Made by a program: the position numbers and the translations under genes
In this document: in pieces, positions 8,756 to 60,211 of the stretch
Position numbering within the stretch: position 1 is the stretch's first letter
How the letters are laid out: the number at the start of each line of letters is the position of its first letter
Notes under the pieces: model-generated
The model's input: the letters and a program-made list of their open reading frames with translations, nothing else
What the model was told of the DNA's origin: nothing
The model's database searches: none
Source of the DNA: Fragilaria crotonensis
Lineage: Eukaryota > Bacillariophyta > Fragilariophyceae > Fragilariales > Fragilariaceae
Direction of reading: 5' to 3'
Assembly (NCBI GenBank): GCA_022925895.1
Contig: JAKSYS010000049.1
Location: forward strand, 97,537-161,536
Length of the DNA: 64,000 nucleotides

Positions 8756-8911
8756 CCATTAGAATGTAGGGAAATGATGTCAATCATGACGTCACTGTAC
8801 TGAGGCCTTCACTTTCCCCCTACGCTCATACAGTCCAGTAAGACAGTAGTGAACAGAGAGCATGCTGATTGGTACTGTACAGCTTGTCGTCATTTCACTG
8901 CATTCTAATCG
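8756..8911. mobile_element. MITE copy A (CRE-containing terminal inverted repeats)
   Basis: About 155 bp bounded by imperfect inverted repeats: CATTAGAATGTAGGGAAATG on the left, and CATTTCACTGCATTCTAATCG on the right read in reverse. The copy at 49438-49591 has the same ends and the same internal words (AGTCCAGTAAGACAGTA here; ACTCCAGTAAGACAGTAA there). No coding capacity. Confidence 0.75.
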
Positions 8912-9195
8912 GATCCGCAACATGCTATTGCACACCCCATCCGCCATCCCTACAGACTTGATTAGCAGTACTTCATTGCGTACTTTAATGCTGTACCAGA
9001 CCCTACGGTACCGGGCATGGACGGTGATAACCCTATAATTAGTTTTTATACAAACTTCATGTACTTCCTACATGTACCACCTACTATACATAAATGGTAC
9101 CGTTAGTTTCTCTCTCGTTGCATCCTCCCATCCACCCATTGGAATCGACCCTGAAGCCCAGATTTTTACGATAGCCTGTCTACGACTGTTGGAAC

Positions 9196-15207: not shown

Positions 15208-15343
15208 TAAGGGCCACCGTTACGTAACTGCATTTCATGAAAACAAAAATGTTTTCGTTTTCGAGGGTCCATTTTACCACCGTTAACGAAAACAGGTCCC
15301 CAAAAACTTTCTGGAAATCACTCAGATGTGCCTCATATCTCAT

Positions 15344-17714
15344 ACATTTATTGCTTTTTGCCACCGAAGTGGTATTTTCCATTCTGGTCAGTATGTGTGT
15401 ACAGGATAGGTCTGTAGTCTGTAGACACTTGTAGATACGGTCCCTCTGGTTACAGTATCGTTCAAAATTTTCCCAGTTATTTTTGCCACCCTGGTGGCAC
15501 GTAGGGTGGCAAATTTTTTACGTGAACAGTGCGTTGTTTTGCCACTCGATCCGTGTTTTTGCCACTCGAATTAGTCGATCGCGAATACGGGACTCCGACG
15601 CAAAAAAAAATTGGGTGTGCAGTACGCAATGCATTGTGCAGTCCCAAAAGATATTGCTGGTCATGCCCCCTACATTACACAGTATATTCGTTTTGCCACC
15701 CACCGGAGTGCGGCTGCGACTCTCCAGTATTGTTGTTTTGCCACCGAGTCATTGCACTCGATTTTGTCCTCTACTGATAGTAGAGTACAGTATTACAAGT
15801 AGTACGGAATATTTACTGGCTACAGTACTGGAGTCGTCAGCGTAGAAGTCCTACAGATGATGACAGTAACATACTCCAGTACTTTCGCCAGTACTAACAA
15901 ACTCTACATGTTGAGTGTTATGTTGAAAGATAAGAGTTCCAGTAAATTGATTTTTACAAATATCTGTAACATCTTACATGCAACCTCCACTCTGTCTTTG
16001 CACTAAGAAAAGATCTACTGCCAGTATCTTGTTTGCTTCATGACCTCAAGAAGGACAACGTAGAAAATGTCAAGGATTCTGACATTGTTGACTTTGCAAA
16101 ACAAAGCAACTTATGAATCACTCCATGATGACTTGATGCAATCATGGATGTGTGTGACAGCATATGGAGTGCCCATTCCAGGTCCTGAAGATAAAGCACA
16201 AGTTGCCATCAATATTTATGACATATGTTGTGCTTCTATTGGGCTTACTACTGTTCTTAAAACAATGTGGCATGATGGCAGGCATCCCAATCTTTGTGAC
16301 TACTAAGTCTTTAACAAGCAACAGTGATAGATACCATCATGCATGTTGACTAATGTGGTTGTTCTGTCCAAGAATGCATGCTCATGTCCAAGCAATGCTG
16401 TCCCAGCATGCAATGCATGCACATACCAAAGATTTCAAGCATAAAACCACATCATCAGCTAGCAACTAGAGCATGTTCTTTCTTTAGCAGAGCATGCCCA
16501 CGAATCCAATGATAAAGGTGCTGGATGATGGATATGCATGGGTATCAGGCAGCATGACTTGTTATGTGACATAAACAAGAAGTAATAATTGAAAGGTCAT
16601 TTTAGTAAATCCAATTAAGAAGAGAATGAGAAGTAAAATAGACTAAGCTGAGGATGCCTTGAAAGTTTTCTAGACCATTGAGTGAGCAACATAGTTGCTG
16701 GCCCCATTGCCTGCTGTTGGTTTTGTTTGCTGTCTCCATATTGGAGCTGCCAAAGCATAACTGCACAGACTTCAGTAGAGGAAAGGAAAGGAAGGTTCTT
16801 TTAAAGGCCTCATACCTTAGCATGACATAGGCATGTGATTACAAGATCAGCATGTCAACAGTCAACTGGATCAATCAGCCACTTTGATCACTTGATGTTG
16901 ATTTTTGTTGTTTGCCTTGTCACATGTCCAGGTGGGACTCCAACTCTGATACAACAACTTCCATTTCCTTGTCGGATATGCTTATTGCTGTTTCTTCTTT
17001 CATAGCAGCAGAGCATGAGGGGTTGTTGAAAAGCCTTCCACATGATGTCACGAAACCCATACCACTGACAAGAATTCCTGTGGGTTCCAGTTTACTACAA
17101 ATAGTGCACAAAATGTGTGAGTGCTGACACTCAGAAAATATTTGCACCTAGAGTATAAAGCACAAGCCTATCCTGTAGTACTAAGGATGATAAGTGGTAC
17201 ATGGGCCAATACTTCTGAGGAGTGGCATTCAGAAATGCAAGATTTCAAGTACTACAGAAGCTTAAAGCTATCATAACTTTCATTCACATGCATGATGTTG
17301 AGGAGTTATACAGCACTGAGAACTGGAGTAGTTGTCATGAAGTTGAAATTGATTTTTCAAAGAAATCAACAAAATTGGACTTAGTGTGGAATGTACTCCA
17401 ATACCTGGTACCAGTGCTGTGTCCGAGTACTTAGTAGCCCAGTCAACTGGTACACAAGTAGTCCGAGTACTGGTACCAGGTACTAACCGTAGTAGCGTCA
17501 TATCTACAATTCTTGTACCTACTCTACTAGCTAGTACTGTAGAGCATTCATATTTGCTGTCGCTCCGTTGTTCATTCGCACCCCAAAATTAAAAATTACT
17601 GTCAGACGAGGAAGTGACTAGTAACGTACACTTCGTACTTAATTCTGCGACATGTACATTTAATACTATGCCTACTCGGTGGCAAAAATATGAGCACGAA
17701 ATCAAGATACCGGC
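15344..17714. repeat. Tandem duplication unit 1
   Basis: This 2,371-bp block is followed directly by a near-identical copy (17715-20095). The junction reads ..CGGCACATTTATTGC. Unit 1 contains repeated TTTTGCCACC/TTTTGCCACTCGA words in its first 500 bp. Compared with unit 2 it has a 7-base extra repeat near 15418 and several one-base-shorter homopolymers at 15885-16015. Confidence 0.85.
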
Positions 17715-20095
17715 ACATTTATTGCTTTTTGCCACCGAAGTGGTATTTTCCATTCTGGTCAGTATGTGTGTACAGGATAGGTCTGTAGACACTTGTAGAT
17801 ACGGTCCCTCTGGTTACAGTATCGTTCAAAATTTTCCCAGTTATTTTTGCCACCCTGGTGGCACGTAGGGTGGCAAATTTTTTACGTGAACAGTGCGTTG
17901 TTTTGCCACTCGATCCGTGTTTTTGCCACTCGAATTAGTCGATCGCGAATACGGGACTCCGACGCAAAAAAAAATGGGGTGTGCAGTACGCAATGCATTG
18001 TGCAGTCCCAAAAGATATTGCTGGTCATGCCCCCTACATTACACAGTATATTCGTTTTGCCACCCACCGGAGTGCGGCTGCGACTCTCCAGTATTGTTGT
18101 TTTGCCACCGAGTCATTGCACTCGATTTTGTCCTCTACTGATAGTAGAGTACAGTATTACAAGTAGTACGGAATATTTACTGGCTACAGTACTGGAGTCG
18201 TCAGCGTAGAAGTCCTACAGATGATGACAGTAACATACTCCCAGTACTTTCGCCAGTACTAACAAAACTCTACATGTTGAGTGTTATGTTGAAAAGATAA
18301 GAGTTCCAGTAAATTGGATTTTTACAAATATCTGTAACATCTTACATGCAACCTCCACTCTGTCTTTGCACTAAGAAAAAGATCTACTGCCAGCATCTTG
18401 TTTGCTTCATGCCCTCAAGAAGGACAACGTAGAAAATGTCAAGGATTCTGACATTGTTGACTTTGCAAAACAAAGCAACTTCTATGAATCACTCCATGAT
18501 GACTTGATGCAATCATGGATGTGTGTGACAGCATATGGAGTGCCCATTCCAGGTCCTGAAGATAAAGCACAAGTTGCCATCAATATTTATGACATATGTT
18601 GTGCTTCTATTGGGCTTACTACTGTTCTTAAAACAATGTGGCATGATGGCAGGCATCCCAATCTTTGTGACTACTAAGTCTTTAACAAGCAACAGTGATA
18701 GATACCATCATGCATGTTGACTAATGTGGTTGTTCTGTCCAAGAATGCATGCTCATGTCCAAGCAATGCTGTCCCAGCATGCAATGCATGCACATACCAA
18801 AGATTTCAAGCATAAAACCACATCATCAGCTAGCAACTAGAGCATGTTCTTTCTTTAGCAGAGCATGCCCGCGAATCCAATGATATTGGTGCTGGATGAT
18901 GGATATGCATGGGTACTATCAGGCAGCAGCATGACTTGTTATGTGACATAAGCAAGAAGTAATAATTGAAAGGTCATTTTAGTAAATCCAATTAAGAAGA
19001 GAATGAGAAGTAAAATAGACTAAGCTGAGGATGCCTTGAAAGTTTTCTAGACCATTGAGTGAGCAACATAGTTGCTGGCCCCATTGCCTGCTGTTGGTTT
19101 TGTTTGCTGTCTCCATATTGGAGCTGCCAAAGCATAACAGCACAGACTTCAGTAGAGGAAAGGAAAGGAAGGTTCTTTTAAAGGCCTCATACCTTAGCAT
19201 GACATAGGCATGTGATTACAAGATCAGCATGTCCACAGTCAACTGGATCAATCAGCCACTTTGATCACTTGATGTTGATTTTTGTTGTTTGCCTTGTCAC
19301 ATGTCCAGGTGGGACTCCAACTCTGATACAACAACTTCCATTTCCTTGTCGGATATGCTTATTGCTGTTTCTTCTTTCATAGCAGCAGAGCATGAGGGGT
19401 TGCTTGTTGAAAAGCCTTCCACATGATGTCACGAAACCCATACCACTGACAAGAATTCCTGTGGGTTCCAGTTCACTACAAATAGTGCACAAAATGTGTG
19501 AGTGCTGACACTCAGAAAATATTTGCACCTAGAGTATAAAGCACAAGCCTATCCTGTAGTACTAAGGATGATAAGTGGTACATGGGCCAATACTTCTGAG
19601 GAGTGGCATTCAGAAATGCAAGATTTCAAGTACTACAGAAGCTTAAAGCTATCATAACTTTCATTCACATGCATGATGTTGAGGAGTTATACAGCACTGA
19701 GAACTGGAGTAGTTGTCATGAAGTTGAAATTGATTTTTCAAAGAAATCAACAAAATTGGACTTAGTGTGGAATGTACTCCAATACCTGGTACCAGTGCTG
19801 TGTCCGAGTACTTAGTAGCCCAGTCAACTGGTACACAAGTAGTCCGAGTACTGGTACCAGGTACTAACCGTAGTAGCGTCATATCTACAATTCTTGTACC
19901 TACTCTACTAGCTAGTACTGTAGAGCATTCATATTTGCTGTCGCTCCGTTGTTCATTCGCACCCCAAAATTAAAAATTACTGTCAGACGAGGAAGTGACT
20001 AGTAACGTACACTTCGTACTTAATTCTGCGACATGTACATTTAATACTATGCCTACTCGGTGGCAAAAATATGAGCACGAAATCAAGATACCGGC
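17715..20095. repeat. Tandem duplication unit 2
   Basis: Direct repeat of 15344-17714 with very few substitutions. A short frame shared by both copies (16100-16306 and about 18470-18677; includes ESLHDDLMQSWMCVTAYGV) stays open and differs by one codon. It may be a fragment of a coding exon but matches nothing I recognise. The near identity implies a recent duplication or ongoing homogenisation. Confidence 0.85.
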
Positions 20096-20833
20096 ACAGT
20101 ATCTCATATCTCATATCCCATCGTCAACGAAAATCTGCCAAGGTTTTCGTTGATCCGCAAAAATCACAGCCCTTCCTCGAAATATTTCAAGATTCTGGAT
20201 TCCTTCTGGAAGTAGGTCTACTATGTGTGCGTTTAATTTGCTCTGCTTGACAGATGCTACTACTGTCTACTGTCACTGCTGGAACAAAACATGAATGTGG
20301 TTTTCTTGCCAGATAATCATCAGATGAACAAGACGTCGTTTCTACCGTTGCATGCGCCGTAGAAACGACGATCGATGCTAGTGCGGTGTTGTATGGTGGT
20401 TCCACACGAGGAACATTGTCAAAATGGTCGTCATTGTCGCATTCCGATGAGTGACGATCTAATAATTTTTGGTTCCGATTTACTTTACCGTATCTGTAGA
20501 CGTACCCAGTACACAGTATGACCAGGATGGAATGATTGGAAATTGGAACACATCTGTGTTTGACATCAAGATTCCTGTTTTGACTCAGTCAACTTGATGT
20601 TTTTGTATTTGTGGTCTGCTTTTTACGTAATGCTGGGGACAAGAATTTTACATGAACAAGAAGTCAAAATTTCTCGTTTTGGTGAATTGTTTTTACGTAA
20701 CGGTGGCCCTAAGCATCTGCCTTAACCAACCCTGACAACATGTCACAACGGACGAAGTATTGCTAGCGAAGCTGGCGTTATCTAACAGGCCAGGCCTGCG
20801 CGTGGAGAAAGCAGGGAAAAAATGAGAAACTAA

Positions 20834-20864
20834 GGGGCGTTCTTAACTCAGCAATTTTTGGGTA
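20834..20864 (+). repeat. Left terminal inverted repeat of the 12.2 kb element
   Basis: Pairs with 32973-33002 in inverse orientation; preceded by TAA. Confidence 0.85.
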
Positions 20865-21387
20865 GGAAGCTGGTAGGATGGTACAGTAGGAGGCAACGGT
20901 GTTGATAACACCATTATAATGCTCAAATTTGTATCCTACTTCTCCCTTCTCAACTCACATCTAAGGGGGCAAATCTGAGGTTTAACCTTATATCCGAGTT
21001 TTTGCCTTCGGGATATAAGAAGATAAAAATAGATACATCCGTTAAAAAACAAACCGAAATATTGTTCGATGAACGAGGTCGGAGTTCGAATTCTGTCATT
21101 TTACTTCCGATTTCGGAAGTTCGACATTCTGAATTCTGATTGAAATTTCTATGGGATCCGTTTAAAACAACATCTGATGGTGACATGTAACATGTCATCC
21201 TATATGGCACTAGGACACGGAAATCCGCTGTGATCTATCTCTTTTTTCCGAAGAATTCTACTTCATAAAGTTGAAATGTCATCACAAGGTATCTGCATTC
21301 TTTTGTAACGATATACGTAAGCTGTCAATCTCTTATTTGTTTAATTCAAATAATATAACATTTATATTCCAATCACAATGAATGATA

Positions 21388-22832
21388 TTAAAGCTGCATA
21401 CTTGGGTGAAACTCACGCAACACATTTGTAACAATCACGTTTCCGAACGACGTATCGTAGAGTCCCATGTCATCTTTGGGAACAATTCTGCACTTTTTAG
21501 CGTCTGGTTCACACGCTAGCTTGGCGCTCTTTCGAGAACGTCGGCGTTCCACAAACACATTTAACAACTCATTGTTAAATACGGCTCCGCGTGAAACACG
21601 GTCTTCAACCACCAAATCATACAATTCATTATACTTTGCCAAACCTGTCTCCGACCATCCAATACCGGTTTGTTCGGCAACCGTTTTGTGTGTTACACCG
21701 CAACGTTTTGTTTTTCTTGAAAACGTGTACTTCGGCGCCTACGACAAATGAAAATCAGTTGTTAGTGGCAATTTATAAACAACGCATTGGTGATTTCCAC
21801 ACTGAAAGTAAAAACGTACCACAAGCGCACGTGGATTGTCTGTCTCCAAACTGTGGCCCTGTTGGATGGTGTAAATCTTTTTTACAAGACGCCTGTCGTG
21901 AGCAATTGCGTGCTATGAATACCATGGCACACATAATATCAAAACCAAACGTACCTTGCGATGTTCTTCTTCAATTTCCGCCATCCACGTAGCACTGTAA
22001 TTGATTAAAACAAGCAATAAAAACGTTTCGTCGCTAATTGACAAAATGTATTCGTGGAAATTAGGGGCATTGTCACCACAGTACTGTGCCATGATAGCGT
22101 CGCGATTCCAAATGCTTGATTTGACAACACATGGCGCGTAGATGTCAATTAGATGAACATAATTGACAATATTAGAGCGCATTGCCAATAATGTCTGAAT
22201 ATCGTCATCGCTGCCACTATTGCGTTTAAAGTTTGGGATGCGGCCATTAACTCCATCTGCCATTAACTGTGTAAGGCATTTAAAACGACACGTGAATATT
22301 TATTGTCACCAACACGTACCTCAAAAACGCAACCGCATTGTTTTAATGACGTTATTGCGATGATCCGTATGTGTTGCGATGACAACCTTACGCATTGTAG
22401 CCCACCATTCTAATGTTGCGTCTTTGACAGGAAGGTTGCAACTCTTTATCACAAGGCCACAAACAGAAGTAGCGCGTTGATCGTACATTCCATGTAAATC
22501 TTTTTGAAAAACTTAAGACGCCGGAACAATACGTTCTTAACGCAGTTACGTACCAAAATGCGCCTGCCTTCTGGCGTCATTTTACCGGTCATGTCAGTGG
22601 TTTCATGGTGAAGTTCCATGTTTGAAATACATGCACTTGGCAGCACCAAATGCATCGTATCCGGTTCGACCAAAGCTTGTATTTGATCATTAGCGGGCAA
22701 TGCATGATACGGTTTTGAATGAGCACGCATGTTAGTTGTCGCGGTTTTATGGTCACCTTTATCAATGCGATTTAAGTCGTCGTCAATGTCAAGACCAAGC
22801 CCTTGAAAGTTAAGTTTCTTATTTTTGCTCAT
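21388..22832 (-). CDS. Spliced accessory gene of the 12.2 kb element, function unknown
   Basis: Minus-strand coding pieces are separated by short introns whose donors are all GTACGT. Proposed exons: 22832-22554 (ATG, MSKNKKLNFQGLGLDIDDDL), an exon around 22499-22320 whose borders I cannot fix, 22266-21955, 21839-21820 and 21739-21388. Acceptors are TTACACAG, GAGACAG and GTCGTAG; the last three exons join in frame. The C-terminal part includes GIGWSETGLAKYNELYDLVV followed by a basic segment (ERRRSRKSAK). A middle exon contains WWATMRKVV in one frame. No enzyme motif; a helical, possibly DNA-binding accessory protein is the best guess. The frame around exon 2 does not close, perhaps because of a one-base omission. 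Confidence 0.45.
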
Positions 22833-24102
22833 TGTTGCAACAACTAAACGGATTATGACATGATGGCAAGGAAATGACATGCATTCGAATGAAATATTTG
22901 TTGCATTAATATGCGCGAAAGTTGTTTTGAAAATAATAGTTAATTCAAATGAATTATACTTAATAAAGTTTGGGTAGAGATTGTATCATTGAGGATTTAA
23001 GTAGTGCACATTATCAATTCTCCGAGCGTGTACGGGACACACATTATTATTACATAGACTACTACTAAAGCTCCTTTTCAAAAGGTGTGTTTACGCTGCG
23101 ATGCAACACTTAGTATTACTAAGATTGTATGCATAGTCAGGGCATACAGTAGCTACCTGCAGTGCTATGCATTGGAGTACTTGATACAGTGCACGAATTT
23201 TCGGTAGCCGTACTACCGTACGCGTAGGGACATTGGCGACCCGTATTCTGAATAGCCGTTATTCCAACGTTAAGTTTCCCCGACTTTTTCCAACTCGTGA
23301 GATTTGCACAAAGTGAACTGTTGTTGTCCCCATTCACTCTCATCACTTCCTTCATCATTCTTTTCTCAAACTTTGCTTCTTTTCAAAAAACGATCACCCA
23401 TTGTAAGTAATGCCATCAGACAGATGACATGTGGCGATTTTGTTCGAATCAGAGGTCAAACCATTGTGTTTTTGCAAAAGAAGTGACATGTGTTGAATGA
23501 AGATCGTTTGCTGTCAGCACTGCACCGTATTGCTGTACACTACTGTACAGTACTGTACGCCAATACTGCCATATCATTCCTACGTGACTAGTGCAGTGGT
23601 GCGGCATAATTTTGTACTGTCACACGGTGCGACAGTACTGTTACATACCTCATACGGTTAGACAGTACTGTTACATACACATTACGTAGCCCATATACGG
23701 CAAAGCAGTAACGAAACAACTCCCCACCTCTAACAACTGCTATGTGCTCGTCTCACCTGATTGCCTTCTTTGCTCTCTCCCACAGCAAGTTCAACAAACC
23801 ATTTATTTGATTTGTTCTCATTTCTTTGTTGCTGGCGGCTGTGACAATTCAACCAACCAGTATTTTTGAGGCAAGGATTCATACACCAATTGCACATTAG
23901 CTGTGGGGGCTAGTCACCTGCAAGAATCTTGCTCTTGATTGAGTATTGCTGACTCCACGTCGTGATTCACTAGCAAAGCAGCGTGTGCTTGTGGTTACGT
24001 GCATTCCTTGACGAAAAACAGTCACCAACATTCATTCGAGGTTTCTGTTTTCATCGAAAATCATTGGCTGGAGATAATCACAGCATCGTCATCAACCGAG
24101 TC
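22833..24102. other. Spacer between divergent element genes
   Basis: About 1.27 kb between two head-to-head genes of the 12.2 kb element. It contains GTAC-rich words (TACTGTACAGTACTGTACG near 23560) and a duplicated sentence (CGACAGTACTGTTACATAC / AGACAGTACTGTTACATAC, about 23630-23680). Probably a bidirectional promoter; no gene seen. Confidence 0.4.
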
Positions 24103-27100
24103 ATGGAAGCCGGTCGTGAACCCGCCAAAGAAGGCAGCAACAGCATCACCGAGGAAAATGAAGGTCCCACGGACAAATTAATTCAGACCATTGATGCCGT
24201 AGATTTAACGCACGACATGAACAAGGGCAAAAGTGCAGAGACCAAAATCCCAAAAAAACAAGTAGGGATGGCGAAAATGGAAAGCATGTTTCTTGCAATT
24301 GAAAAACTTGATCCTGGTTCAAACTTGACAGATGCGACGCATCCCTCTGGGATTGAAAACCAACCCACGATCCATGACGTCGATGCTACTGATTCCAAAT
24401 CGACGAAATCAACTATGACATCTATGAAGCCGACAACGCTGAACGATCCCATTGATGTTGATGCTACCATTCTTGTTCCTGCCGATATTGATGTCCTTGC
24501 CTATCGTGACGACGAGGTTGCTTTCATTGTTCCCCATCAACTCAAATCCGTTTATGGATTCTCTGGCGTAGATGAATTCTTGATGAAAGATAACGACGCC
24601 CGCAATGCGAGACATGCGGTGCGATCCGCATTTGATTTGCAACCCAGAACTGCCGGATATGGAGAGATTGATCTTTACCGCTGCCAGCATTGGTACAAAG
24701 ATCTCCGATTTGCGTCGCTTATTGACAAACCCGGCGATGGTGATCACACTTGGTATTTTCGCCTTGTTGTCATAAACCCATCTGCTCCCGATTGTAACCT
24801 GGTGAAGAACAAACATTTGCAACCTCGCATTGCCAAGTTTAAGGAGTTGGCACTTAAGTTTTATGTCAGTGGTTTTGCTCCAAAGTCAACAACAACATCG
24901 TCCATTCGGTTAGCATTGGAAAATGAGATTACTATCATGATTGTAACGAAGAAGAAAGCAGGACCCATCCATACGTGGAAACCGATGTGGGAAGAAAAAA
25001 ATCAAGGAATGAAGGTTGTTGCAGCGGTCACCTTTAGTCGCACGTTTCCTTCGCGAAAGGAAAGGCACGATGTTGCCGCGTTCATTTCCTGGCTTCTTGT
25101 TGCCAAGCATGATACATTGCACCCAACGCAAATTAATGGCTGGCGAAGGCAAGGGTTTGGATTATTTTTGATTATTGCAATGATCAAATATTGTTTTGCA
25201 AACGACAATGCTACCAAGACATTGGAGATCTTTTTGCAATCCTACGAACCGTCTGCTTTTCATTTCTACACCATGCTTGGGTTTAAGCAAATAAACGATC
25301 ATTTCGATGATGGATTTTCAATGCTTCCGAGACATGTGAGGCATCATTTGTCAGCATTCAAATCTGCGGAATTCAAAATTTCAATCTTCCATGCATATGA
25401 AAAGGATGACCCCAACTCCGTTGTTTATCAACTCATGCATTTGCGTTCTGGATGCCTGCGTCATTTCCAACTTGCCCCTGCTGATGAAGCACAAGCTGTT
25501 TCACAGGACGCATCTGACTCAAACAATGCTTGGAAACTTTGGTGTGAATTTCCACCACCCATAGTTCGCGGAATACGTCTGCACTATTCTGACTCTACTA
25601 TGCGACAATTGTTTGTTGGCCTTCCTTTTGTGAAAGCATTGCTTCCACCTCCGTATGCAAGTGTTCCTCCTTTGACGACCATGTTTGTTAAAGGAGAAGT
25701 GCGTATTGAGCGTCGGCTGTTGCATACAGAAGCACATGGAGTGAAATGGATGCAAAGTGGAGAGCTTGACTTGATGATGGCGATTCTTTTGTGCGATGGA
25801 CGGTATCAAGATTTATGTTTTGTCATGCCATGCTGTTACTGTGATTCGATCGCAATTGCTTTTGCTAAGTTCGTCGAATATCAGCGTGCCTTAAAGATGG
25901 TCAAACTCGGCAAGGAACAAGATCTTGATCCTGTTAAGCTTGCGCAAGCCATCCTGGACCGATTCAAAGCTCCTGTGACTCAACTTGCAAGCGATTATTG
26001 CAAGTTGAGAAACCACCTGGTGCAGCATGTGATTCACCCAAACCCCGGGATCTTAGATCGTCGGATGATTGTCTTTCCATGCAACGAAAATGAAAGCCAT
26101 TGGAGTGCCACTTTTGTCTTTAACGCTGCGTACAACACGTCTGAAGTCGAAAAAAGGAATAAAGATGGATTGCGTGCGTGTTTTTTTCGATACTGCAGTA
26201 TGGACACAAATGGCCGACGCAATGTTCCAATTTCCCAAGGCATCTTGTGGTTCTTGAATTTATGTTCGAGTTACGATGCGCACGAAAAAAAACATTCGGA
26301 CCCATCAGAAGGCAAGTTGGAGTGGCTGTCACCTTTTGGTGAAGCATTGGATGGAAATATGCTTGGCACACCTACTTTTCCCGCACTTCATTTGCCTTTG
26401 AATTCCGACATTCTTCCGAAGCAATCCAACGATGACACTTACAATTGTGCCTTTGGTGTCATAGCAACTTTAGCAATGGTCCTGCGTGATCTGATTGTTG
26501 ATGATGCTACATTCGATGACCAATTCTCGGCGACAGCATTGGAGTTGAAAAAGTGTGCATTGAAGAACGAAATGTATTGCGACATGCCTTATAAGGATTT
26601 GCAACCACCTTGGGTATCGCTGCCCAAAATCAAGAGGGAATCTTTTCTTCCCGAGTTGCGAGAGCAGTGGTTTGTCTTATTCGACCGTTTGGCAAAGCTT
26701 CAATTCGATGTTGAGCCCAAGAAAGTTTTTGCTGATTATCTTGTCCCTGATGTTTACACAAACAACTTGCCTCTAATCTCGCAATGGCCAGTTGGAAACC
26801 AAGACATTTTGTTGGAAGCAAAGGCAGCACCTTCGCCATCGCCGAAAAAGGTCCGTGCTCAGACACAACGAAAGCTTTTGCCAAAGGCACGGCTCAAGAC
26901 GGGAACAACAATCCAATCTGATTCGACTGCATTATCTGCAATTCATGAGCAGACCGAAGCATCAAAGCCAACAAACGACGAAGCGGCAAGAGTGAACATT
27001 AATCACTCCGACGAAGCCAATGTTTTGACGCAATCTGACCATGTGGCAACAAACGACAACAATCGTATTGAAGGAGCCAATGTTTTGTTGCTAACGCCAG

Positions 27101-29021
27101 AAAAAGGAAGTGCGAATATGGATGTTCCCGAAAGCGCAGCTGGTGCATCAATGGAAAGGGCTGTATTAAATGCTGACGTGCAGACAGAGGCAAGCGCAAA
27201 CATCACACAAAGTCAAACCTTGGCATCTGATACGAAAACATTCGAACCAAAACCGCTCGTTGTTCCTTTGAAGCGCAAAACGGATGCAGTTGAAGATATG
27301 GCGGAGGCGTTTCTTAAGAAGATTCGAATCAAAGATCCCCTCGATGCAAAGAAACTGGAAAAGGCTATTATTCCTTTCCCAGATCCAACACCAAAGTTCT
27401 GTACGCAATCAAAGGCACTGTGTGAGAAGCTTGCTACAGAATACGGAGTTACTGGACTACCTACACCGACCATTATGAAACGATCGGACTATGAAGCGGA
27501 AATTGAAGAGTACATCGAGCAAAGCTTCAAGGCTTGGAAATGGCATACAAAGGCTCAGCATCAAGCTGAGCTTGATCGCTGGGCAAGGAAGAAAAATATT
27601 AATGGTATTTCCAAGGAGACCATTCGTGACATTGACATGATGATCAAAGCCTTGCAAGACGAGCGAGCAAAATTCCGAAAATTCTTTGCCAACGAATTTA
27701 AGTGCACTCAGAAAACATTGGTACAGAGTGTGAGGTTTGATAAAGCAACGAATTCATTCCGAGCGAAATTGGTTTGGACAGAGGAGGTTCCGGTCTTTCC
27801 ACCTCAAACCAACAACCAAAAGCAAAAGACTCCACAGAAAGCATCGCATTATGATTACATTCGGCAAGAAGAAGAAATCGATGTGGAGGAAGAATGGGTC
27901 AAATCTGAATTCCAACCCATGTTTGATCAAATCATAAATATGCGCCAGGAGGAATCCAACTGGACTCAGGTTCCGCGAGATGTGGAAGTCTTTATTGGTA
28001 AGAAAAGATCATCCGAATTCGATATTGCCCAGAAAGAAAAAGCAGAATTGTCGACACTGCTGAATTGGATAAAAGAATTGAGAAGGAAATTGAAGAAATT
28101 GAAATGGAACGACGCAAATCCTCTCAGAAAAAACGCAAGGGAAGATCAGAGAAAGGCATTACTGATAAACCCGCGAAAGCGGTTATATCAGAACAGAGGC
28201 TCTTGCGTTCTTCTCTGAATAAGGATGTTCTCAAAGGTTTGGATGCCACAGATGAGGATGATGACTGGTGGGATTCTCAGTTGAAGAATTTGAAGGCTTT
28301 GAAAGACCCTCCTCCACGAAAGACAATTACAGTTGAAGGCAAATGGCTTGGAAAGACATCGGATGGTAAAACGCCAACACTGGAAGAAGATTACGTCCGC
28401 AAAACCTTTGGCGATTGCTTCACTGATGAATTGAAACAATCTAAACGAGGCTGGGTTGACATCCCCGTTGGTGATTTTAAGCAATCTCGCTTGAACCAGC
28501 ATCCTGAGTTAAAGGTGATTGGCGCACCTGCAATTCAATTCGTCCAATCTGAAGGAAAGGATTTGTGTGTGAGTAAGTCTCTTGCATCGGCCTTCTTTGC
28601 ATTGGGATGGCACGATGATGCATCAAAGATTGACGCATTCGGCGAGGAAATCTTGAAAGGCGCAGTTGTTGATGCATTGCGGAGGGTGGTTAAGCATGCA
28701 AGAACTTTACTTCCAACTTGGATTGTGATTAAAAAACTTCCAAGTTCATTCGATTGGAAAGTTGATTTAAAAGAGGATGAGGTTGTGCTTGGCGTCTTGC
28801 AAGCCTCTGACGACAGTTGTTCTCATGCAGTTACCATCCATGGGGATTTTATCTATGATGCAAATGAGACAATTGCTCTACGTCTGTGCGATGAGGCATT
28901 GGATTATTGCACTTCCTCCGAAACGGTGCAAAGTAAATTTGTTGCTTTCAAACTTGGCTTCCGGTTCTTTTATGAAGGTAAGAGACCATTGAGACGTTCC
29001 AAAATGAGGCTGCCTGCATAA
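24103..29021 (+). CDS. Giant GNAT acetyltransferase + Ulp1-like (C48) protease + papain-like domain protein
   Basis: ATG 24103 (MEAGREPAKEGSN) opens a 1,372-codon frame to 28218. A second frame (28065-29021) continues it. The change lies in a short A run near 28065; one added base fuses both into about 1,640 residues. Domains seen: GNAT fold around residues 200-430, with RRQGFGLFLI (acetyl-CoA loop, near 347) and SAFHFYTMLGF. A Ulp1/SENP-like protease with the full order His (ESHW, near 664), Asp (SMDTNG, near 699), Gln (PKQSND, near 773) and Cys (YNCAFG, near 781). A charged, disordered linker (870-1090) and a coiled coil (about 1270-1370). A C-terminal cysteine-peptidase-like domain with Cys in DLCVSKSLASAFFALG (near 1490), then His and Asp/Asn in SHAVTIHGDFIYDANET. 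C48 proteases are known cargo of several plant and algal transposons; the fusion with GNAT is unusual. Substrates are unknown. Confidence 0.7.
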
Positions 29022-29159
29022 AAATATGCATCATGCCCTTGATTTCATTGAATAACGCAGCAAGCGTTACAAAACCCATCAGTTGAAGGAAACAATGGGG
29101 AAAGTATGCATGACGATATCCTTATCAGAATGTAAGGATAAATTTATATAAATAATTAT

Positions 29160-32078
29160 TCAGTAATCGCCATCTTCTTCCTCCTCCTCCTCTTCTTCAA
29201 CATTGTCATCGAAGTCAATTGATTTCTCTTCGTCCGAACTATCCGTATGCATTTCCTCGTCATCGTCGTCGTCAGAAGAGGATGAATATTCATCAACCGG
29301 TTTCGTGAACTCGGAAGCCCAACTGTCCAATGGCAAGGCTTCTAGAACTTTTGACATGTCGGGCTTAATCGAAATAACAAAACATGGGCCCACAATATTG
29401 GATGGTAGAATGACAAGGTATTCAGAGGACCAACACCATTCCGTCAATAGCACTGATTGAACACCGGTCCGTTCGGTAGTGCTTTGGACTACCAAATGAT
29501 ATGGTTCTGCATTGAGAGCATCCACGGCACAGATCACAACAGCAGCCAGACGGCAGGGAAACGCCGTTTTGATGTACGTGTTGGTTTTGGTATCCATCAC
29601 CTCGAACAAGACATTCATCCAATCGTTAATCGGATTGTCGGATTGATACGCAGGATGGCAACGAAACGTATATTGGTCACGCACATATTCGGTACAGAAA
29701 CGGACGTGTGGGCCAAATGTGGTCCACATAAATTCCATCAATGGTGTTGGCAAATGCATCAACCGCACATCGGTCTTGGTTGCCCACTGAACGTTTAACA
29801 TCATATTGGTATTCCGAAACAAAACTCCAAATGTTGCATTGCCAGTTGATTCAAAAATAGATGCTGCGTCCACAGACGGGACACTTACCGCCGTGTTGGC
29901 GTCCCCCCAGATTCGTGAATGAACCTCAGCAATCATCAACGAATACGATAAACGTTGAGCTGCCTGCAATTCGTACAAAGCACCTGTATGTCGTTTTTGA
30001 GCTCTGCGACCTGGTTGTTTTGCCACAGGAATCAACAATGACTCCGGGCGTTGTGCGCAATAATTTATAGGGGCACCGAAACGTTCCATGTCGTTAAGAA
30101 TGTGCTTCAATTCATGAAATTTTGGGAATTTCCATGTCTTTTTTTTAAACAAGGGAATATCCTTCTTGCACATCTCCATCAGTTTTGTAATCGCATCTGA
30201 GACTTGTAAAACGGATTCGTCATGATGTTCAGCTGTCCAATAGGTAGGTTGATTGAGCCACTGGTCAAAGCACAACAGTGCTTCAAACACATTGATAACC
30301 TTTCGTAAATTGGTGCGATTTTTTTGTTGCAGCGCTTTGGATAAAATGATCCACCCTTCATCATATTGGGCAAGTATGACGAACAAGAATACCAATCCCA
30401 CACGCTCGGCAGCAGATATCTTTGTTAGGTTGGTAATGCCGTTGCTGAAATCGGTTGCAGGATACACTTTGCGATATGTTTGGCGGTGCGATCTGTGAAA
30501 ATGAACGGCCAACGCGTCCAAGGCAGCACGTCGGCGAGTTGGTACATTTTTAAGAACCAGAAATGTGACCTTTTCAATTAAACCTTTTCGAAACGCATGG
30601 AGAGTTTCCACCGGAGTAGCGCCAAAAATGCCGCGCACTGGATCAGCCATGGGCACGTAATCAAACGCATTATTAAGATAATGTTGCGACCACGGCGTAC
30701 GCACTTTTTGATCGGGGTTGCTGGAGATGCGTGCCATGTCTGCAGCAACCAAAAGGAACACGTAGCATGTGGATTATCCAATTCCGCTGCTGTGACGTTG
30801 CACGCACGACAATGGCGTTGTATCCCGGTTGTGTGTGAGCCAAAACGACCACAGAGTGCATCGCCTTCTTGCATGTCTTGTATCACAAAGAGTATGCAAC
30901 AAATGACGTCAACGCAGATTGCACCTCTGGGACCAAGAGGAAGTATAACATTGCGAAGGCGGGGTTCCGAAGTAGTGAAGGAGTGCAATACAGCATAAAG
31001 TTCCGCATGGTAATTGCGAATATTGTTTCCTTGAATTTGGGTTTGGTTTTGAGCCGACGATGTCTTTTGTTTTGGCAAAATCCATGATAACCCCAGGCCT
31101 GAATTTTGCGACGAAAGGGTTCTTTAAAATTGCTGGCGTAAACATGTATGGCTTCAAGGAAAAGCGATCATTGCCGGTGACAGATGTGCGGTCAATCCAT
31201 TGGATAATTGGCACAAAGAATTGACGTTCAGGATTGGTGATCATACGTTCATATGCATCACGATACACTTGACCAGAGATGGCATCACCAAGTTCACCTT
31301 GTGGTGATGCGTATGGCAGCAAGGGATTAACGGGGTCAATTAACAAGTTGTCAGCTGTCATCAGTTTTGGGTTCTGCAACAACCGCAAGAGTTGAGGCAC
31401 AAAGTCAAACACAATAACATCACGAGGAGGACCATGAGGAGTGGTAACGTTTACAACCGATGGCAAGAATTGCGTTGCATTTTTCATACCCGAAAACAAC
31501 AGATCAATGCTTCGCGAACGCGATAAACCACCATCAGGATAAAATGAATACCTTGCGGCATTGGCACCTCTGGCCCATCTAAGCACAGAAGCAAATGCGT
31601 AGTCTGGAGCATTCATATCGTCCAATAATTTTAACAACGCAACCGTCCACTTTTGATCATCAGTGTACAGCCATGGCTCTTCTTCATTGGAATCAACAAC
31701 AAGGGGCAGGGTTGCATTTACTTCCCATGCGTAGCCTTCATCATTCGCGGCAAAGTCATCATCAGAAGGCGCGTCAGTTGTGTTTGTCGCCTCATCGTCG
31801 AGCATCGATGCCGACCACGTTTGTGTATTATGCATGTTGGCATTGTTAGGGTTTATCACGTCACGTCTCATCAGAGATGAAGGTATGGTGGAGACAAACA
31901 CCACGTCATCTGCAATTGGTTGGTGTCTTGTGTCACCACCAGAAGAGGATTGATCAATGAACGACAGACAGGATGGGGAAAGTGCAAAATGCATCGTGTA
32001 TCCTTTTTCATTGGAAAAGGATTGGCGTCGACTTCCACAGTCAGGATTGTGACACACATATCTTGAAGCCGACATCAC
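29160..32078 (-). CDS. Plavaka-like (CACTA superfamily) transposase with three frame breaks
   Basis: Starts at ATG 32078. Order of parts: an N-terminal zinc finger (CHNPDC..H..C, residues 8-38); a conserved pre-core block (DFVPQLLRLLQNP, then GQVYRDAYERMI); a core block with FVPIIQWIDRTSVTGNDRFS and LKPYMFTPAI; a block FVIQDMQEGDALCGRFGS with the CRAC zinc-binding pair; and a C-terminal block FPKFHELKHILNDMERFGAP and RPESLL..AKQPGRRAQKR. This order is that of Plavaka-type transposases. Frame changes at about 31125, 31078 and 30752 each sit in a run of four T (sense strand), and a fifth T restores the conserved text. The C-terminus is a strongly acidic tail (D/E/S-rich, 29160-29300). It may be intact in the real genome. 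Confidence 0.75.
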
Positions 32079-32972
32079 GATAATAGGATATGCTTGTTGT
32101 TTGTGATTAGATTGGCTGCTTGGTGAGTTGTGAGTAATAAGGCGCAGACAAAAAACTTTGATTCTTTTACCAAAATAAAAAACGGATGGACGTCAAATTG
32201 TGGAGGAAGAAAGGGCACAGTCAAACGAGCATAACAACGTCTTTTTCCCTTGTGCAAAGAAACAATTCCGTGTTAAAGAATGCAGGCTATCAGAAAAAGA
32301 GATACAGAAATACGACCTAGCATAAATCGATGAAGTGGCATTTTTGTATGAAGGTTTGCTACATATATCCGTGAACCAAAACTGAGTTTTCAGAAGTCGG
32401 GTTACGTTTACATAGTTATCCGGATAGAACATCTGTCAATCACAAAACTCCGAAAACCCATGAGAACAATGAAAACGTTAAAACTTCCAGTATTTAGTAC
32501 TAAGGCATAAATAAATAGCAATAATTTTGCCAGTATATGTGAAAATGTTATCAGAACTATTATTAAACCTCAGATGTGCCCCCTTAGATGCAGTTTTCCA
32601 TCCTCTCATCCAACTTCATTTACTTAGGAAAATGACCTCGTTTCCACATAATTAAAAATCTATCATGTGTGACGAAGAATTCTCTAGGTCACCTATGTAA
32701 AATCCGAATACGATTCTGAGCATTGGTGCTTCCACATGTAACATGTACATCTACAGATTTGATTTCTTTAAATAAAAAATGCAGGGCAATGTGACGACGT
32801 CACGTTGTATGTGGTAGGATGAAGGAAGCCTCCACGCCTGTTTCATCCTACCGTAGGATGCAAAATTGCCTCCTACCATCTTTTCCGGGTTTTAACGGTC
32901 GAATAACGTTTAAAAACGAATATAACCGAAAAATCATCCTACCCTCCTATGTCATACATACCATCCTACTTG
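32079..32972. other. Right subterminal region of the 12.2 kb element
   Basis: Non-coding. Holds the inner inverted repeat (32563-32590) and at least five copies of TAGGATG/CATCCTA between 32811 and 32970, including a back-to-back pair CATCCTACCGTAGGATG near 32845. Probable transposase-binding region and promoter for the transposase gene. Confidence 0.55.
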
Positions 32973-33002
32973 TACCCGAAAATTGCTGAGTAAGAACGCC
33001 CC
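32973..33002 (-). repeat. Right terminal inverted repeat of the 12.2 kb element
   Basis: Reverse complement starts GGGGCGTTCTTACTCAGCA; followed by TAA. Confidence 0.85.
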
Positions 33003-33087
33003 TAAGATTCCGTGCTTTTGGAGGCCTACACGTGTCCTACTAGTAGTTGCTCTATGCATACGTACAATCAAGGTCCAAAGCAGCTTT

Positions 33088-33138
33088 ATTACAGTGACGT
33101 AAATGTTGACGTCATTTCCTTGAATTCCAATCGGATCC
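33088..33138. mobile_element. Truncated MITE fragment (copy C)
   Basis: GTTGACGTCATTTCCTTG, then AATTCCAATCGGATCC, matches the right end of the MITE at 49562-49597. No left end is found. It lies 85 bp from the end of the 12.2 kb element. Confidence 0.6.
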
Positions 33139-33416
33139 TCAGATATGACATACTCGGAGTAGAATACGAGTATGTATCGCCTATGTCCTATATCTATCAT
33201 ACTGTATGCGTATGACACATATGCATATGCCCATATGCACATATGCACATATGCATGTATCATACAGTACATGGATGGGGTCTGTCGGAAGTCGGAACAT
33301 CGAGAAACGTCGAACAACGTCAATACGGCGTATGTAGACCAAGTACACAAGTTCACAAGTACTCCGAGCACATCATTGTTGCAAATCACAACACTCCTGA
33401 CGTGACAAACAATTGA
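33139..33416. promoter_or_regulatory. Upstream region of the CNNM gene with CATATG cluster
   Basis: Bases 33216-33262 contain five closely spaced CATATG/ATATGCA words forming overlapping palindromes, within 200 bp of the CNNM start. Possible regulatory cluster or simple repeat. Confidence 0.3.
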
Positions 33417-35528
33417 ATGGAGAATACTTCGCGGACTATCCGATTCAATAATGTGCAATGGCTGAAGTGTAGACCTTTTGCGCTTTGCATAAGCGTTATG
33501 CTGGCTATTACGGTGGTCGGTTCTGGGAAATTGAATCATGATTTGAGCGAAGCACCGCCTGATACACGATTCCTGCGAGTCACTTCCCATCTGGAACGAA
33601 GTATCCAGGAGGTTCAAGACTCCGTCTGCGCCGTCGAGTGTTGTCAGCAGTTTGAATCCGAGATTTGCGCTCCAAGTGGAGATGATTGGACCAACGCAAT
33701 TCCGTTCGCTCTGCAAATCCTCCTGATCGCTGTCCTGCTGGCCATTACTGCTCTATTCTCTGGGTTGACCCTCGGACTTCTCAGTCTTGACAAGACTGGA
33801 CTCGAGATCATCATGGAAGGTGATGATCCTCTGCGCGCTGAGCAAGCAAGGCAAGTGTTCACGGTGCGAGAGAATGGAAATCTGTTGCTGAGTACTCTGA
33901 TCTTAGGAAATGTGGCAGCCAATTCCTTCTTGTCGATCCTAATGGGACAATACCTTGGTGGTGTCATCGGCTTAATCTCGTCGACAGTCTTGATTGTCAT
34001 CTTTGGTGAGATACTACCACAAGCGCTGTGCGCGCGGTATGCCCTTGAGATAGGGAGCAGGACCGTTCCATTGGTGAAAGTTATTATCTGCTTGTTCTAT
34101 CCGTGTGCGTTTCCTCTCGCATGTTGTCTCAACAAACTCCTGGGCAATGAACTGCCAACGACGTACTCCAACGCGGAAATGCACAAGCTGCTCCAGATCC
34201 ATGTGTTAGAAGGGCGTTTTGACGCTGAAACTGCGGACGCTATGACTGGAGCTCTCAGATACAAGGAGATCCCCGCCAAGGACGTTATGACATCAATCGA
34301 AAACACGTTCATGCTCAATGTTGACGAGAAGCTCAGCTTCCAAACAATTGCCACGATATTCAAGACCGGTTACTCTCGAATCCCTGTGTATGAAGTGTCT
34401 CGGAACAACATCATTGGTCTCCTCTTCGTGAAAGACCTAATCTTTGTTGATCCGGAGGATGACACTCCTGTACGAAACTTCGTCCAGATCTTTGGTCGAG
34501 GCGTCCACGTAGTATGGCCAGACGATAAGCTAGGTGACATTCTTCGAGAGCTGAAGAAGGGAAAGTCGCATATGGCGCTCGTTCGCGACGTCAACAACGA
34601 GGACGAGACGCGGGATCCTTTCTACGAGATAAAGGGTATCATTACACTAGAGGATATCGTCGAGGAAATCCTTGGTGACGAAATTGTGGATGAGACAGAC
34701 GCATTTGTAGATGGAACGCATAGCGCCAAGGTAGATCGCATGGAAACATTCGACTGGGGCAGGCTCTCGCTTCTCGACTCCAAGATTTTGGAGCAACGAC
34801 TCTCGGGCGAGGAAGTGAAGGCTGTCACAGCTCATTTGCGAACGAACTATGCAAATTCCTTTGTTCTTTTGACTGATCATCAGCTCCAACATTTGATTGC
34901 AGAAACTGCTGTTGAAGAATTGCCTGCAGCCCTCTACGAGATCGGCCAACAAGTCCCAGAAGACCTGATATATAGTAGAGGTGCTCAGACTGACTTTTGC
35001 ACTGTCATCCTGAGCGGCAAGGTCACCGTCATCGCGGGAGCTGACCAATTCCGATCCGACGTGTCGTCGTGGTCTGTACTAGGAGCCTCTGTCTTTCAGC
35101 AGGCCTCCTACAAACCTGATTTTACAGCTTTCGTTAACGGCGGTCCTTGTCGTTGTTTGCGCATAACAAAAGCAAGGTTCAACGAGGCTGTGGATGCATC
35201 TGCAGTTGAACGGACTTCCAACCCTCCACTTCTGAGCGCTGTTCCAGCTGCACAAGAAACTCAAATCTCCACCGATCCCCGGGAACCAGGCAACCCGTCC
35301 GCATCGAAGCGGGAATCCCGAAGGACCCAGCTTCTTGCCGCATTTCAAACCAGATCTGTGCCTGAAGTCGCGAGCATTGAGGTCGAAAACGTCGGAGATA
35401 TTACCACCCCGGGATCTGTTGTTGACTCTGAGACAGGTTCAATACGACCTCATACTCTTGGACTGTCAGCTCAGGCTTCGACAGTCCTGCCAAAGACGAG
35501 TGGAATTCAATACATCGGGCCTGACTAG
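33417..35528 (+). CDS. CNNM/Mam3-type metal transporter (DUF21 + CBS pair + cNMP-like domain)
   Basis: One uninterrupted exon of 703 codons from ATG 33417. A hydrophobic N-terminal segment (residues 22-36) fits a signal peptide, followed by a short luminal part. The CNNM transmembrane domain (about 95-270) contains LFSGLTLGLLSLDKTGLEII, LSTLILGNVAANSFLSIL and IFGEILPQALCARYAL, all typical. A Bateman module (about 285-440) has PAKDVMT, GYSRIPVYE and IKGIITLEDIVEEILGDEI. A cyclic-nucleotide-binding-like C-terminal domain (about 490-590) has ILSGKVTVIAG. The family exports Mg2+ or other divalent metals, or regulates their transport, at plasma or vacuolar membranes; which one here is unknown. The gene ends 117 bp before the RecQ-like gene ends (tail to tail). 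The C-terminal 100 residues are disordered. Confidence 0.9.
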   Translation: MENTSRTIRFNNVQWLKCRPFALCISVMLAITVVGSGKLNHDLSEAPPDTRFLRVTSHLERSIQEVQDSVCAVECCQQFESEICAPSGDDWTNAIPFALQILLIAVLLAITALFSGLTLGLLSLDKTGLEIIMEGDDPLRAEQARQVFTVRENGNLLLSTLILGNVAANSFLSILMGQYLGGVIGLISSTVLIVIFGEILPQALCARYALEIGSRTVPLVKVIICLFYPCAFPLACCLNKLLGNELPTTYSNAEMHKLLQIHVLEGRFDAETADAMTGALRYKEIPAKDVMTSIENTFMLNVDEKLSFQTIATIFKTGYSRIPVYEVSRNNIIGLLFVKDLIFVDPEDDTPVRNFVQIFGRGVHVVWPDDKLGDILRELKKGKSHMALVRDVNNEDETRDPFYEIKGIITLEDIVEEILGDEIVDETDAFVDGTHSAKVDRMETFDWGRLSLLDSKILEQRLSGEEVKAVTAHLRTNYANSFVLLTDHQLQHLIAETAVEELPAALYEIGQQVPEDLIYSRGAQTDFCTVILSGKVTVIAGADQFRSDVSSWSVLGASVFQQASYKPDFTAFVNGGPCRCLRITKARFNEAVDASAVERTSNPPLLSAVPAAQETQISTDPREPGNPSASKRESRRTQLLAAFQTRSVPEVASIEVENVGDITTPGSVVDSETGSIRPHTLGLSAQASTVLPKTSGIQYIGPD

Positions 35529-40141: not shown

Positions 40142-40495
40142 ATGCGAAGTGGAAATCCACTTCAGTGAAGTGGAATTCCACTTCGGATAAGTGGAATTTC
40201 ACTTCGGGGAAGTGGAATTCTACTTAGGGGGAGTGGAATTCCACTTAGGGGAAGTGGAATTCCACTTACCCGAAGTGAAATGCAATGTTCCCAAAATGAA
40301 TTCATACTGAATTGTGTAGGCGTCACGTGTGTCCATCGCATTGTGAGGAAGTGGAATTCCACTTCGGGTAAGTGAAAATCCACTTCGGTGAAGTGGAATT
40401 CCACTTCGGGTAAGTGGAATTTCACTTTGGAGAAGTGGAATTTCACTTAGGGGAAGTGGAATTTCACTTAGGTGAAGTGGAATTTCACTGACTAG
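40142..40495. repeat. 21-bp minisatellite with palindromic core
   Basis: Two blocks (40148-40285 and 40346-40490) of a 21-bp unit, consensus AAGTGGAATTCCACTTNGGGG, are separated by about 60 bp of unrelated sequence. About 14 units. The first 16 bases of each unit form a perfect or near-perfect palindrome (AAGTGGAATTCCACTT). Because 21 is a multiple of 3, both strands stay open over the array, but I regard these frames as by-products. Confidence 0.9.
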
Positions 40496-47100: not shown

Positions 47101-48100
47101 CATTCTCTAGGTACTTGCAGACAAGTCCGAGAGACCGATGCGGGAGTAGGAGCATGGGAGAAAGGTGAAGCTCTACACAAGGGGATCCAAAAGCTTCTCG
47201 AGAATCGGGATTGGAACCTTCACGACAGGCGCGGATCAGCATTCTTCCCAAAATCGACCACGAATACCGTGGAATGTCAAGAATCAGCTTGATTTGCATC
47301 TTACAGTCCTCTTCACCTTCGCCAAGAAAGGCATCAGGTAGACTGTAATGCTCTTTCAAAGCAAGAACTATCGACCTGTTTGGAGGTAAAGTCGACGGCA
47401 GTGCCGTTTTCCCCATTTCCAAGGCATGTCGCTCCAACCTTCTATACCGCAACGACGTCCCCCCAGACAGGATGCTTAATCTTCGGGCAGCGCACGCCAG
47501 CTTAAGCCATAGGACGGGATCCGACCCATCGAGATCAGATGCGTCACAAAGAGACACAAGCGCTAGTTTTTGGTGGAAGCCCACATCCCAACCGACGAGA
47601 GGCAACGGCTTGACAACCCCAGTGTCAAGGATACCACATCCCGCGATTTCACGACATTGTTGTGAAGCGACCAACAAATCTGAGTAGTTCAACAACGAAA
47701 GATATGCAATCTCGCTAACGGTGGCCTTGTGAGAGGCCGATGTCAAGATGGCAGGCTCCGGGCGACGCTCTCGTACGAACGTCCCACTCTCATGGACAAC
47801 TCTTGTCCAAGTAGGACAGAATTTTCCAATTAAGGGATCCAGTAGAATGGCCTTCTCAAAAGTTGCTTGAGCAGCTGAGGCCAAACTTTGACTCTGGGCC
47901 TTGAATTCCTCCTTTGGTCCCTCCTTCTCGGCTGCAACTTGCAACTTGTGCATCGCTCCGACACATGACATAGCAGTAGAATATGCCTTAGTAAGGCGGG
48001 CCAGCGCAGCCTCCACAGTCTCACTGCTTTTCCTTATCGATTTCGCATCGTCAGTCCTATGTGAACTCGACGAAACAACGTTGGCGGCTTCCCATCTCAT
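41191..48100 (-). CDS. CABIN1/Hir3-like HIRA histone-chaperone subunit, in five coding pieces
   Basis: Starts at ATG 48100 (MRWEAANVV) and ends at 41191, about 2,290 codons; human CABIN1 has about 2,220. Pieces: 48100-46190, 46190-42700, a short middle piece to about 42615, then 42613-41592, and the C-terminal piece to 41191. TPR-like text near the N-terminus (DPVLWLKLACAARRL, RYRRLERHALEMG) and the conserved block EVVYRLHASRLKCLI near the C-terminal third (compare EVYFRLHASILKLL in CABIN1) support the family; so does RLHWLAAGYYLDRS. The breaks can be explained by introns of about 38-46 nt (GTGAGG..GGCAG 42709-42672; GTCTGG..TTTCAG 41631-41592; about 44 nt near 46195), or by single missing bases. 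The break at 42613 has only a 17-nt GT..AG alternative and is better explained by a missing G in a G run. Family role: deposits H3.3 with HIRA/UBN in the nucleus. Confidence 0.7.
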
Positions 48101-49437: not shown

Positions 49438-49591
49438 CGATTAGAATGCAAGGAAATGACGTCAAGCATGACGTCACAGTATTAACCCTTTCACGTGCTA
49501 CATATGGTGATACAGTACTCCAGTAAGACAGTAACATATGGAGAGCACGTTGATGGGTACGGCTTGACGTCATTTCCTTGCATTCTAATCG
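49438..49591. mobile_element. MITE copy B, 154 bp, 30-bp perfect TIRs with TGACGTCA sites
   Basis: The ends are a perfect 30-base inverted repeat starting CGATTAGAATGCAAGGAAAT (49438-49467 and 49562-49591). Each TIR includes TGACGTCA, and a second TGACGTCA follows 4 bases inside on the left. The copy at 8756 and fragment at 33088 belong to the same family. No target duplication is obvious. Confidence 0.9.
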
Positions 49592-49829
49592 GATCCGTGA
49601 TCTCATTATCATTATGGCGTGCACATGCAGAACCAGCCGCGCCAGGAATTTCCTCATTGAGATACCAGATGTACCGTAGACCTCTGCGACTGAGTATCGT
49701 CCGCTCATTTGTGAGTGCTTTCAATCGACCATACTACAATGACCTCGTTCGTTTGTGTTACTCAGCATTGCAGTACAAGTACTGTACAAAGTACGAAGGA
49801 AATGTACCATATAGACTGAAATTTACGAA

Positions 49830-54778: not shown

Positions 54779-56510
<1,732 letters not shown>

Positions 56511-60167: not shown

Positions 60168-60211
60168 TACACAAAATTCTCTCATTTTTTACCTAAGCAC
60201 CTGGTAGACTA

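Follow-up and report, generated by a model that had tools for sequence, protein, structure and literature searches.

Two DNA transposons are probably nested at a 12.2-kb locus first read as a single element with cargo

The locus at positions 20834-33002 of the window (the whole 64-kb stretch of DNA that was analysed) contains a transposase gene and two further genes between inverted repeats, and raises the question of which ends delimit the element that carries these genes. The first-pass annotation regarded the locus as one 12.2-kb transposon with terminal inverted repeats (TIRs) of about 30 bp and TAA on both sides. Both of these features are indeed present. The outer arms, 20834-20864 on the plus strand (GGGGCGTTCTTAACTCAGCAATTTTTGGGTA) and 32973-33002, can be aligned with a single gap and agree in 29 of 31 columns; TAA stands at 20831-20833, where it is preceded by C, and again at 33003-33005, where it is followed by G. 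In our opinion, the locus is nevertheless very probably composed of two nested DNA transposons, a Plavaka-like element lying within a small outer element.

Central to this reading is a second inverted repeat, the first among the 101 inverted pairs listed. Its arms, 20958-20985 (CATCTAAGGGGGCAAATCTGAGGTTTAA) and 32563-32590 (minus strand; TTAAACCTCAGATGTGCCCCCTTAGATG when read on the plus strand), are complementary at 27 of 28 positions, and a 21-bp core of the repeat, when up to three mismatches are allowed, is matched twice in the window, compared with a mean of 0.00 in 100 shuffles. The inner ends open with CATC and close with GATG (CATCTAAGGGGGC..GCCCCCTTAGATG, or, in a longer form, CATCTAAGGGGGCA..TGCCCCCTTAGATG). 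Each arm is flanked by CA (20956-20957 on the left, 32591-32592 on the right), a putative 2-bp target duplication, for which it should be noted that two bases agree by chance in 1 of 16 cases. Judging from these ends, the proposed Plavaka-like element would occupy 20958-32590 (11,633 bp), with all three genes inside. According to the available part of the source, the CMCT clade, which includes Plavaka, is characterized by ends that are mostly CA..TG and by duplications of 2-5 bp; PlavakaB elements end in CATCA..TGATG and PlavakaA elements in TGT..ACA, with duplications of 2-3 bp (PMC12730594). The inner termini, CATCT..AGATG, share four of the five terminal letters of PlavakaB, and the outer GGGG..CCCC termini do not correspond to Plavaka ends. 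Within the 64-kb window, no further copy and no empty site was found.

The gene closest to the right inner end, on the minus strand at 29160-32075, appears to encode a Plavaka-like transposase. It is present as three open pieces (32192-30909, 31123-30578 and 30773-29160, with ORFs of 427, 181 and 537 aa), and its frame breaks at two places, near 31030 and 30760. The motifs follow in the order WIDRT, FVIQD, HCRAC (C(2)C), FHELKH (H(3)H) and RPES; the last four stand in order across two open pieces, and the C(2)C and H(3-4)H pairs, which in Plavaka transposases are located between the second D and the E, were recognized by eye. As placed by eye and without a profile match, this order is that of CMCT/Plavaka transposases. 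By resemblance, WIDRT and RPES presumably hold the catalytic D and E. A Pfam scan of all transposase pieces gave no match, an NCBIfam scan of two of the three pieces gave one irrelevant weak match only, and a PDB sequence search with the C-terminal piece likewise returned one irrelevant weak match.

The cargo gene spans approximately 24103-29021 on the plus strand. Its main part is a long ORF of 1414 aa (open frame 23974-28218; the first Met was taken as 24103, giving 24103-28218). Past a frame break near 28045, the gene is probably continued by a 339-aa ORF in another frame (28002-29021, plus strand). The parts are arranged in the order GNAT-like stretch, C48-like series, frame break and papain-like series, the two series being recognized by motif. 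The first-pass annotation described this product as a GNAT-C48-papain-like fusion, of which the GNAT part retains a weak, sub-threshold Pfam match, whereas for the other two names the libraries searched offered no support. The trimmed GNAT-like stretch matches PF13673 with an E-value of 0.0064 and 16.9 bits, below the Pfam cut-off of 23.6. With the whole ORF, the PF13673 match has an E-value of 0.036, also below the cut-off, and Pox_A6 ranks higher (E 0.022) elsewhere in the protein. The NCBIfam rimI match (E 0.021) reaches 15 bits against a cut-off of 86.4. A GNAT-like motif, RRQGFG, is located at 25144; the GNAT assignment of this stretch is weakly supported.

The C48-like series consists, in order, of ESHW (26092), CSMD (26194) and PKQSNDDTYNC (26416), a candidate for the H-D-Q-C series of a peptidase C48 (Ulp1). 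The papain-like series consists of DLCVSKS (28560), SHAVTIHGDF (28821) and also DANE, a candidate for the C-H-N/D series of a papain-like peptidase. Pfam and NCBIfam profiles gave no match for either part, and a PDB sequence search with 24487-26745, the GNAT-C48 part, gave none. Single-sequence fold predictions were unusable both for the C48-like part (pLDDT 33.6) and for the papain-like part (pLDDT 38.3). The C48 and papain-like names are putative and reflect the order of motifs.

The third gene is spliced and is located on the minus strand at 21388-22832, with exons that we read as 22832-22320, 22266-21955, 21912-21820 and 21738-21388. The three introns (53, 42 and 81 nt) each have the form GTACGT..AG and are indicative of a eukaryote; exon 1 contains one or two frame breaks. 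Pfam gave no family match for the scanned parts of this gene, which did not include exon 3 (31 codons). In the region that separates this gene from the divergently oriented cargo gene, a 30-bp tandem pair and palindromes with ACAGTACTGT are located at 23527-23678; this could be a regulatory region.

The three genes that the first-pass annotation placed on both strands between the TIRs are thus present as coding stretches, and as assembled none of the three appears to lie in a single frame. Such disruption would be expected of an old, dead Plavaka-like insertion, in which the cargo ORFs would be pseudogenes or captured pieces of host genes that had at no time functioned together with it. This view, which is compatible with nesting, also accords with the lack of homologues in viral and prokaryotic collections, although these collections say little about eukaryotes. 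We consider it unlikely, given that the 1414-aa frame is open, that the ends are preserved at 27 of 28 positions, and that the three introns keep their GTACGT..AG form. By eye, the frame breaks seem to lie in or beside single-base runs. A series of ORFs outside the element (41543-48316, minus strand) is also apparently split, near 46200 and 42700, as judged without consulting homologues. Because this outside series also seems split, assembly indels are a fair explanation of the frame breaks, the alternatives being a dead copy or small unrecognised introns.

The outer element comprises a left part of 124 bp (20834-20957), with the TIR beginning GGGGCGTTCTTA and four CCTAC/GTAGG motifs, and a right part of 412 bp (32591-33002), with six such motifs and the TIR at 32973-33002. 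By arithmetic, its length would be about 534 bp (124 + 412 - 2, one CA being subtracted). In the ORF listing, no ORF of at least 100 aa lies wholly within either half; a 266-aa ORF (32952-33752, minus strand) enters the last 51 bp of the element from outside. A MITE is by definition short, TIR-bounded, non-coding and multicopy; no second copy was found in the 64-kb window. The termini are GGGGCGTTCTTA..TAAGAACGCCCC, of the GGGG..CCCC type, and the target site, combined from both sides, reads C|TAA|G. As defined in the available part of the source, target duplications of PIF/Harbinger elements are 3 bp long and read TWA, and the target of NuwaII is C|TNA|G; the site observed here agrees with both definitions and resembles in this respect NuwaII and the MITEs of the PIF/Harbinger (PHIS) superfamily (PMC4482050). 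The outer element differs from that superfamily in being without a transposase, and its class is deduced from its ends. On these ends, we tentatively file it as a Harbinger-type MITE.

Subterminal repeats occur in CACTA-like elements too, and the outer element might accordingly be a non-autonomous CACTA/Plavaka relative, in which case the nesting would be right and the outer class wrong. The range of duplications in the CMCT clade, 2-5 bp in the available text, would accommodate its TAA (PMC12730594). Such a relationship is nonetheless quite improbable, as the ends are GGGG..CCCC and not CA..TG, and the target C|TAA|G is as in PHIS elements (PMC4482050, available part).

Other repeats are present in the window. 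Immediately to the left of the outer element, the stretch 15210-20710 is delimited by a 45-nt inverted pair (AGGGCCACCGTTACGTAA.., 78% complementary); it is without a 200-aa ORF and includes a 2.4-kb tandem duplication (15344-17717 and 17715-20098, 98.6% identical). A sequence of about 160 bp that resembles a MITE and is palindromic in part is found at 49436-49597 and 8754-8917 (76% identical), and a partial match to it, at 33086-33138, starts 84 bp to the right of the outer element. At 40146-40489, the palindromic unit GAAGTGGAATTCCACTTCGGG, 21 bp long, is repeated in tandem. The region 56608-60169, in which a 69-nt inverted pair (75% complementary) surrounds two overlapping minus-strand ORFs (57984-59311), is probably another DNA transposon; one of these ORFs has a weak, sub-threshold winged-helix match (PF13592, E 0.0079). 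A glucose-6-phosphate isomerase gene is located at 54713-56510, as two ORFs with apparently one intron between them. The best solved structure for its first part is 3nbu, which we take to be from Escherichia coli, with 334 bits, compared with about 290 for the best of the structures that we take to be animal enzymes.

A further line of evidence concerns which end segments belong together. The ends were cut at the repeats already seen into segments A (20834-20957), B (20958-21400), C (32148-32590) and D (32591-33002), and the 8-mers shared in either orientation were counted, with the repeat arms kept in, and compared with those of 300 shuffles. Outer segments share words with outer segments and inner with inner: A and D have 33 8-mers in common (1.9 expected), and B and C have 39 (13.0 expected), with 0 of 300 shuffles as high in either case. 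A shares none with B (2.0 expected) and one with C (2.4 expected); for C and D, the 13 shared 8-mers (9.7 expected) were reached in 76 of 300 shuffles. The one exception is the B-D pair, with 25 shared 8-mers against 10.3 expected and 4 of 300 shuffles as high, which counts against nesting. This excess comes mostly from ACATGTAACATGT (21183 and 32734) and CGAAGAATTCT (21249 and 32673), two near-palindromes whose copies agree in direct orientation but are collinear only in inverted order, so that they fit either type of repeat poorly. We read the B-D words as chance; they would fit a single element, and another meaning is possible.

The CCTAC/GTAGG motifs are distributed in an analogous manner. 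The first-pass annotation's subterminal repeats stand in so far as four such motifs are found in A and six in D; they are, at the same time, confined to these outer segments, since B and C, the 443 bp at either end of the inner segment, have none. The whole inner 11,633 bp contains 8, and the rest of the window 73.

Symmetry was assessed by counting inverted words of at least 8 letters within 30 bp of symmetry, with 20834-20890 and the inner arm left out. Three words, two of them 11-mers, are symmetric about the inner centre (0.62 expected; 2 of 100 shuffles as high), and none is symmetric about the outer centre (0.54 expected), the first 57 bp being omitted from this count. Within the omitted 57 bp, GTAGGATGGTA and GGTAGGATG do have symmetric partners with respect to the outer centre; as both join A to D, they are compatible with both models. 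It should be noted that the 30-bp limit was set after both 11-mers were known and that one of them lies exactly at the limit; for this reason, the test is supporting and not independent. Exact inverted blocks of 14, 13, 13 and 12 were observed, each of them part of the outer or the inner repeat pair; when the end regions were shuffled 100 times, no exact inverted match exceeded 13, and the longest match per shuffle averaged 9.9.

That the locus is one 12.2-kb element, with the outer repeat as its TIR, the inner repeat as a subterminal inverted repeat and TAA as its duplication, is very unlikely: the outer TIR and TAA are genuine, 3 bp falls within the 2-5 bp given for the CMCT clade in the available part of the source (PMC12730594), and the B-D excess favours it, but the GGGG..CCCC ends are at odds with CA..TG, A shares words with neither B nor C above chance, the CCTAC repeats end at the inner repeat, and the inner repeat has its own CATC..GATG ends, its own flanking CA and an off-centre position, 124 bp inside the left outer end but 412 bp inside the right one, which is what an insertion would produce. 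The 12.2-kb unit of the first-pass annotation is therefore probably wrong, because the outer TIR and TAA carry the PIF/Harbinger-like signature of another type of transposon and the halves that they bound are gene-free. Its association of transposase and cargo within one TIR-bounded unit is supported by the inner repeat and not by the outer one.

Both inverted repeats, their flanks, the sorting of shared words into outer and inner pairs (B-D excepted) and the order of motifs are observed. For the nested arrangement, we infer the order of insertion, the superfamily names, the activity and the target of the cargo as follows. A gene-free element of about 534 bp, with GGGG..CCCC ends, CCTAC repeats and a C|TAA|G target, would have arrived first, its movement probably catalysed in trans by a transposase of PIF/Harbinger type. 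This resident MITE would later have been the site at which a Plavaka-like cut-and-paste element of 11.6 kb (20958-32590) inserted, duplicating CA. The Plavaka-like element would encode a DDE transposase, a long cargo protein (GNAT-like, then C48-like and papain-like) and a spliced accessory gene; the transposase would bind the CATCTAAGGGGGC ends, excise the element and, on reinsertion, generate a 2-bp duplication. By analogy with TET/JBP cargo, the cargo may act by modifying either proteins of the element itself or silencing factors of the host. Its anti-silencing role, as already proposed in the first-pass annotation, is speculation.

The known systems closest to the inner element are described here from the available parts of the respective sources. 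PlavakaB elements of agaricomycete fungi, which belong to the CMCT clade, resemble the inner element in their CATC..GATG ends and perhaps in their 2-bp duplication, and some of them carry a cargo gene; this cargo is a TET/JBP dioxygenase, which is DNA-demethylating and is thought to aid escape from methylation-based silencing (PMC12730594). The inner element differs in having CATCT instead of CATCA, a GNAT/protease-like instead of a TET/JBP cargo, and a transposase without a Pfam match. Outside fungi, Plavaka is found in the giant repeats of Amoebidium, which are likewise protist Plavaka-type transposons with large gene clusters, but these clusters extend up to 50 kb and many of their genes encode tyrosine recombinases (PMC11244446). 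The EnSpm-Plavaka elements of the green alga Auxenochlorella are comparable as algal Plavaka-type transposons, and the text available on them describes no cargo (PMC12636532). Ulp1/C48-like domains, which are recognized here by motifs, are found in the CACTA-ULP elements of grapevine and rice (PMC2528002) and on other cut-and-paste transposons, the Ulp1-bearing (KIU) MULEs (PMC13317346); thus, a C48 cargo alone would not be new. For both of these systems, the available portions of the sources mention no GNAT-like or papain-like part (PMC2528002, PMC13317346). In a literature search of partial coverage, judged by titles and the beginnings of abstracts, no report was found of a transposon uniting an acetyltransferase with an Ulp1/SUMO protease.

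Searches for relatives by protein pieces gave 6, 3, 6, 15 and 1 pattern-matching stretches in viral_contigs and 110 in genome_contigs, with 0 relatives in either, and the exact outer TIR pattern had 0 matches in genome_contigs; these collections represent viruses and prokaryotes, and such misses say little on a eukaryotic element. The 14-mer CATCTAAGGGGGCA matched 61 stretches of viral_contigs, a count for which no expectation was computed; with a 20-letter extension, 0 of 61 matched, and these candidates were taken as chance.

The cargo is, in our opinion, the notable part of the locus, interesting yet unproven. It is a doubtful proposition that an element of the Plavaka lineage, with CATCT..AGATG ends, has as its standard equipment a three-enzyme protein (acetyltransferase, SUMO-type protease and papain-like protease), a protein-modifying counterpart of the TET/JBP cargo that serves, perhaps, for escape from silencing. 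The shift in boundaries alters the search for copies, in which the gene-bearing element should be sought by its CATCTAAGGGGGC ends and not by the GGGGCGTTCTTA/TAA ends. If the cargo does not recur within the inner ends, the locus would be an ordinary nested insertion. If it does recur, protein-modifying enzymes would join TET/JBP as Plavaka cargo, and transposon counter-silencing via SUMO or acetylation would become testable.
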